From Bacillota bacterium (lineage in GTDB: Bacteria; Bacillota_I; Bacilli_A; Izemoplasmatales; Hujiaoplasmataceae), in the NCBI GenBank assembly GCA_003245625.1, contig QKCT01000079.1, forward strand, positions 1 to 35,536: a stretch of DNA of 35,536 bases. The letters are read 5' to 3'. The notes under the pieces were generated by a model that had not been told where the DNA came from, searched no databases, and saw nothing but the letters and a program-made list of their open reading frames with translations. The stretch's first letter is position 1; every line of letters starts with the position of its first letter. Below are positions 34,368 through 35,536 of the stretch, in pieces. Made by a program: the position numbers and the translations under genes.

Positions 34368-35036
34368 ATGAGAATCGAAATTCGCAACCTATCCTTTGCT
34401 TACGGTCATAAGACAGTGATCAATGGATTATCTCACACAATCAATCCCGGAGATTACCTTGTAATTCAAGGCAAGAATGGTACGGGGAAAACAACCTTAA
34501 TTAAATGTTTATTGGGAATCAATTCTGTGAAGAACGGAATGATTTTTTTCGATGGAGAAGATATCAATTCATTTGGAAACTGGACAAAGTTTGGTTATGT
34601 AAGCCAAAACCTCGATGATTTTAACTATGAATTCCCTTTGACAGTAGAAGAATTGCTGAAATTTTCTACCATCACCAAAAGTCAACAAAGCAATTATCTC
34701 AAGCATTTGGACCAAATGGGCATTTTGGATATTTTTAATCAAAACATTAATTCATTGTCTGGAGGACAACTCCAAAGAGTATTTATTGTTCGGGCGATGT
34801 TAAACAATCCACAAATCCTTATTTTGGATGAGCCTACCGCTTCCATTGATAAACAAAATACTGAATTCTTTTATAAAACCGTAGAAGAACTAAACCGACA
34901 AGGAATCACCATCATTCTAATTACACATACAGAATCTTTGGAACATATCAATTATTCTCACCTGTTGAATATGTCACTAGACTTAACGACGGAAGTTACT
35001 CAAAAAACACCTCAAAAGGCGGTGGATCGCATATGA
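34368..35036 (+). CDS. znuC: zinc/manganese-type ABC transporter ATPase
   Basis: 222 aa. Single ABC ATPase domain: Walker A GKNGTGKT (about 36-43), Q-loop YVSQNLDD, signature LSGGQ (about 129-133), Walker B ILILDEPTAS, H-loop ILITHTE. The class is that of metal importers (ZnuC/MntB/TroB), supported by the ZnuB-like permease start that overlaps its stop codon (ATGATG at 35033). Zn versus Mn cannot be told from sequence. The solute-binding protein gene is not present upstream; it may lie past the right edge or elsewhere. Confidence 0.88.
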   Translation: MRIEIRNLSFAYGHKTVINGLSHTINPGDYLVIQGKNGTGKTTLIKCLLGINSVKNGMIFFDGEDINSFGNWTKFGYVSQNLDDFNYEFPLTVEELLKFSTITKSQQSNYLKHLDQMGILDIFNQNINSLSGGQLQRVFIVRAMLNNPQILILDEPTASIDKQNTEFFYKTVEELNRQGITIILITHTESLEHINYSHLLNMSLDLTTEVTQKTPQKAVDRI

Positions 35037-35536
35037 TGACACTATCCTTTTTCCAAGATTTATTCTTGGAAGACTTCATGTTACGGGCTCTTCTAACAGG
35101 AATCATCTTAGGTGCTTTGGCTCCTTTAATCGGCTCCATTGTCGTCGTTAGACGTCTATCATTCATTGCTGAAGACGTCTATCATTCATTGCTGACACAT
35201 TGGGTCATTTCTCGTTGGTTGGGATATCTGTCAGTTTATACATCTCTACCTTTGGAATCACGTTTTTCTTGGAAAAACCGCTCTATTTAGGATTGTTATT
35301 CTCTGTAATCGGAGGGCTTCTGATTGAATTGTTCCGAAGGTCGTATAAGAACTACAAAGAGATTTCGATGGTTATTGTAATCAGTTTAGGTTCTGCTCTT
35401 AGTGCGATATTCTTCTCTCTCGCAAAAAAAACAGGGTCCCTGTTTACCTATCTCTTTGGTTCTATCCTTACGGTAACCAATTACTATCTAGTATTAATTT
35501 TCATCACTGCGATTATTGTTCTAGTGTTGTTTATTC
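35033..35536 (+). pseudogene. znuB: metal ABC transporter permease (ZnuB family), frameshifted and cut by the window end
   Basis: The frame opens as a typical ZnuB permease (membrane span RALLTGIILGALAPLIGSI, then VVVRRLSFIAE) but shifts in the 23-bp tandem duplication 35150-35195 and stops at 35287-35289 after 85 residues. With one copy removed, the frame reads on as RRLSFIADTLGHFSLVGISVSL, the conserved SFIADxLxH motif, and stays open with further membrane spans (LYLGLLFSVIGGLLIELF; ISMVIVISLGSALSAIFFSL) to the window edge. As written, the permease cannot be made without frameshifting, so ZnuC would be an orphan. Assembly error is the main alternative; a reversible slippage switch is also possible. 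Confidence 0.85.
35150..35195. repeat. exact 23-bp tandem duplication in znuB
   Basis: Copy 1 is 35150-35172 and copy 2 is 35173-35195; both begin AGACGTCTATC and end TTGCTGA, with no mismatch. The repeat does not extend beyond 23 bp on either side. Since 23 is not a multiple of three, it moves the downstream reading frame. Confidence 0.97.

Follow-up and report, generated by a model that had tools for sequence, protein, structure and literature searches.

The exact 23-bp tandem duplication that interrupts a metal permease gene close to the end of the analyzed contig is, with good confidence, an assembly artefact in which two strain haplotypes were misjoined at a contig end. This reading is preferred because an overlapping contig of the same assembly, C95, holds only one copy together with an intact gene. 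Most likely, the actual gene carries a single copy and its product is an intact ABC-3 permease of 291 aa, like that of C95, and the 23-bp duplication is most likely not a real feature.

The window, i.e., the whole stretch of DNA that was analyzed, is the complete contig C54 (35,536 bp) of a 1.85-Mb genome that is split into 118 contigs, with 90% completeness and 3% contamination. The genome is taken as metagenome-assembled, because it is fragmented and its contig ends are strain-divergent. The following features were located at the 3′ end of the window:

34368 to 35036, + strand: intact gene for the ATP-binding protein of an ABC transporter (ZnuC/AztA-like), sharing 4 bp with the start of the permease frame.

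35029 to 35536, + strand: contig-end region overlapping C95:1-485, with 14 SNPs, all synonymous and all 3′ of 35195.

35033 to 35290, + strand: truncated ABC-3 metal permease frame of 85 aa, read from the two-copy sequence.

35150 to 35172, + strand: copy 1 of the 23-bp repeat, ending on the last base of a 144-bp stretch identical with the start of C95.

35173 to 35195, + strand: copy 2 of the 23-bp repeat, not present in C95 and followed directly on its 3′ side by the first haplotype SNP (35196).

The repeat unit is AGACGTCTATCATTCATTGCTGA, present in two head-to-tail copies without a mismatch and ending 341 bp before the end of C54. Analysis with TRF returned a period of 23, 2.0 copies, a 100% match and a score of 92, while the next-best tandem array of the whole window scored 43, less than half of this value. 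In 20 Markov simulations matched to the window in length and dinucleotide content, no exact tandem pair exceeded 11 bp, and ∼3e-9 exact 23-bp tandem pairs are expected by chance. A chance origin of the repeat was therefore rejected. The exact head-to-tail duplication described in an earlier, sequence-only reading of this DNA was thus confirmed. That reading had also taken the lack of mismatches as the sign of a very recent event; the exactness holds, but recency does not follow from it, since a join artefact yields the same exactness. No microhomology was present at the edges of the duplication (flanks GTT/AGA...TGA/CAC).

The permease frame that opens at 35033 ends after 85 aa with a stop at 35290, in agreement with what had been read from the sequence alone; the conserved motif SFIADxLxH had also been recognized correctly, and C95 carries SFIADTLGHFSLVG. 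The Pfam family ABC-3 (PF00950) covers residues 14-64 of the truncated product (only positions 3-53 of the profile) vs. residues 14-275 of the intact copy, which is encoded at C95 5-880 (291 aa) and matches positions 3-257 of the 258 in the profile with 173.4 bits against a cut-off of 20.1. The C95 protein thus resembles the ABC-3 family metal permeases (ZnuB/AztB/SloB) in matching the family over nearly its whole profile, and differs from them in staying below the cut-off of every named NCBIfam model, including the ZnuB equivalog NF007089 (82.1 bits vs. 284). Since no equivalog cut-off was reached, “znuB” is used as a family-level name only. A second ABC-3 metal transporter locus was found at C113:2181-4458, where a ZnuA-like binding protein adjoins an intact, complete permease.

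SNPs apart, the last 508 bp of C54 (35029-35536) are identical to the first 485 bp of C95 plus one extra 23-bp copy. After its single copy, C95 continues into the complete permease gene. When the extra copy is set aside, all of the 14 SNPs between both contigs are synonymous, which indicates that both haplotypes descend from functional genes and were kept functional by selection. The SNPs are not evenly spread: 14 of 14 lie 3′ of the duplication (p ∼0.007 if SNPs were uniform), and the first one follows immediately after copy 2, where a random duplication would abut any SNP with p ∼0.03. C95 itself begins exactly 144 bp upstream of its divergence from C54, a length that recurs in six other exact overlaps of contig ends. 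The possibility that C95 carries a paralogue and not the same locus was rejected on the basis of the 144 bp identity, the synonymous-only differences and the geometry of the contig ends.

The starts of all 118 contigs and the ends of 55 were considered. Exactly 144 bp are shared by six pairs of these termini. Overlaps of up to 682 bp, most at 1-6% divergence, join around 33 further pairs, which indicates that strains are mixed and that the assembly is broken at many places where co-existing strains differ. The ends of C82 and C94 overlap by 549 bp with 43 SNPs, and here an 18-bp indel is found exactly at the point where the haplotypes part, ∼144 bp from the C94 terminus.

The assembly was made from a metagenome with co-existing strains. 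The overlap with C95, its intact one-copy version, the SNP pattern and the 144-bp signature of the contig ends are observed, while the joining step itself is inferred. One contig piece would have ended on the last base common to both haplotypes, at the divergence point in the permease gene, and sequence from the other haplotype, beginning 23 bp upstream, would then have been attached without merging of the overlap. Such an unmerged join would duplicate the 23 bp exactly and in tandem, shift the frame and leave a contig that breaks off 341 bp further on. What is expected of an artefact at a strain junction is present here: a one-copy version in the same assembly, a junction at the haplotype divergence and a contig end nearby. 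There is a counterpoint, as the exact 144-bp lead implies that the two-copy path is a branch in the final graph, and real reads could also make one.

In eukaryotic assemblies, false (heterotype) duplications that arise where haplotypes diverge are a well-documented problem (Ko et al., 2022; PMC9516828). As in those cases, divergent haplotypes would here make the assembler keep sequence twice, by which genes are broken or multiplied; however, the published duplications concern large segments of eukaryotic diploids, whereas here a 23-bp unmerged strain overlap in a metagenome assembly is proposed.

Other perfect duplications were sought in ∼670 kb of contig bodies and in contig-end sequence totalling 258 kb, two overlapping sets that cover part of the genome, scoring exact two-copy repeats of at least 20 bp. 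Besides the 23-bp repeat, only two were found in the scanned stretches:

C105:17972-18045: exact 2 × 37-bp tandem duplication that splits the frame of a GdpP-like c-di-AMP phosphodiesterase, 244 bp from the contig end.

C109:753-820: exact 2 × 34-bp tandem duplication that splits the frame of an MscS-type channel (mscS), 753 bp from the contig start.

Neither length is divisible by three, and both repeats are frame-breaking. When 400 kb were sampled from the finished genome of a relative in the same family, no exact two-copy repeat of at least 20 bp was detected. That three frame-breaking exact duplications occur in unrelated conserved genes, all of them near contig ends, points to assembly and not to regulation. 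By analogy with the permease, the gdpP and mscS duplications may be artefacts as well; no second allele of either was found elsewhere in the assembly. One fixed k-mer overlap length behind all three was considered and rejected, as lengths of 23, 34, and 37 bp fit no single k-mer size, which is a further counterpoint to an artefact.

The nearest homologue of the permease shows 77% identity at the DNA level and 92% at the protein level, and the 875-bp alignment contains no gaps. None of the permease loci fetched from relatives carries a second copy of the 23-bp repeat, and the exact two-copy string had no match in the GTDB contigs searched, a scan that may leave out the source genome itself. No homologue that holds the duplication in frame was seen among the fetched loci. 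The records encoding relatives of the permease are labelled as Izemoplasmatales, Mycoplasmatota or Bacilli MAGs.

The sequence-only reading had left two explanations side by side, slipped-strand switching of a metal importer or an assembly artefact. The artefact is now favored by the one-copy C95, by a repeat that ends at the haplotype divergence and by the sister cases at contig ends, while the switch finds no edge microhomology and no two-copy allele in relatives. Known contingency loci that vary by slipped-strand mispairing consist of many short units or of conserved repeats. The permease resembles them in that gain or loss of a tandem copy shifts the frame, and both the one- and the two-copy form are indeed found in one assembly, as would be seen if cells toggled between both states to turn the importer on and off. 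It differs from them in having only two copies, no microhomology and relatives without the repeat: the one-copy state offers neither a repeat nor edge microhomology to slip on, and neither a repeat conserved in relatives nor slippage microhomology, either of which would mark such a locus, was found. The two forms moreover differ by 14 linked SNPs, and therefore stem from separate strains rather than being two phases of a single clone. Taken together, a switch is hardly credible.

A real and very recent duplication in one of the co-existing strains, either an ordinary loss of function or a minor variant that happened to be sequenced, would involve no switching and is a more serious, though still unlikely, alternative. 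The two-copy path has its own linked SNP haplotype, and loss of the gene could be tolerated, as C113 encodes a second, complete ABC-3 permease together with a ZnuA-like protein. Such a duplication must, however, have ended by chance exactly at the first strain SNP and 341 bp from a contig end, it is carried by none of the relatives fetched, and the gdpP and mscS duplications, likewise close to contig ends, disrupt conserved genes that are unrelated. A broader form of this idea, in which the lineage would often carry genuine, small and blunt frame-breaking duplications (23, 34, and 37 bp) that reversibly inactivate the metal permease, MscS and the GdpP-like c-di-AMP phosphodiesterase in sub-populations, is considered very improbable, and a literature search on reversible microhomology-mediated duplications in bacteria yielded nothing useful.

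A misjoin of strain haplotypes thus remains the preferred explanation, and it calls for caution, as short tandem duplications that are exact and lie close to the ends of contigs in strain-mixed MAGs can mimic pseudogenes or phase-variable loci. A simple test can be reused for such cases: an overlapping one-copy contig is sought, and the end of the duplication is compared with the position of the first SNP between the strains. Independently of the repeat, the overlapping contig termini show that this assembly could be joined further, and strain duplicates at the termini may slightly inflate its total length and contamination.
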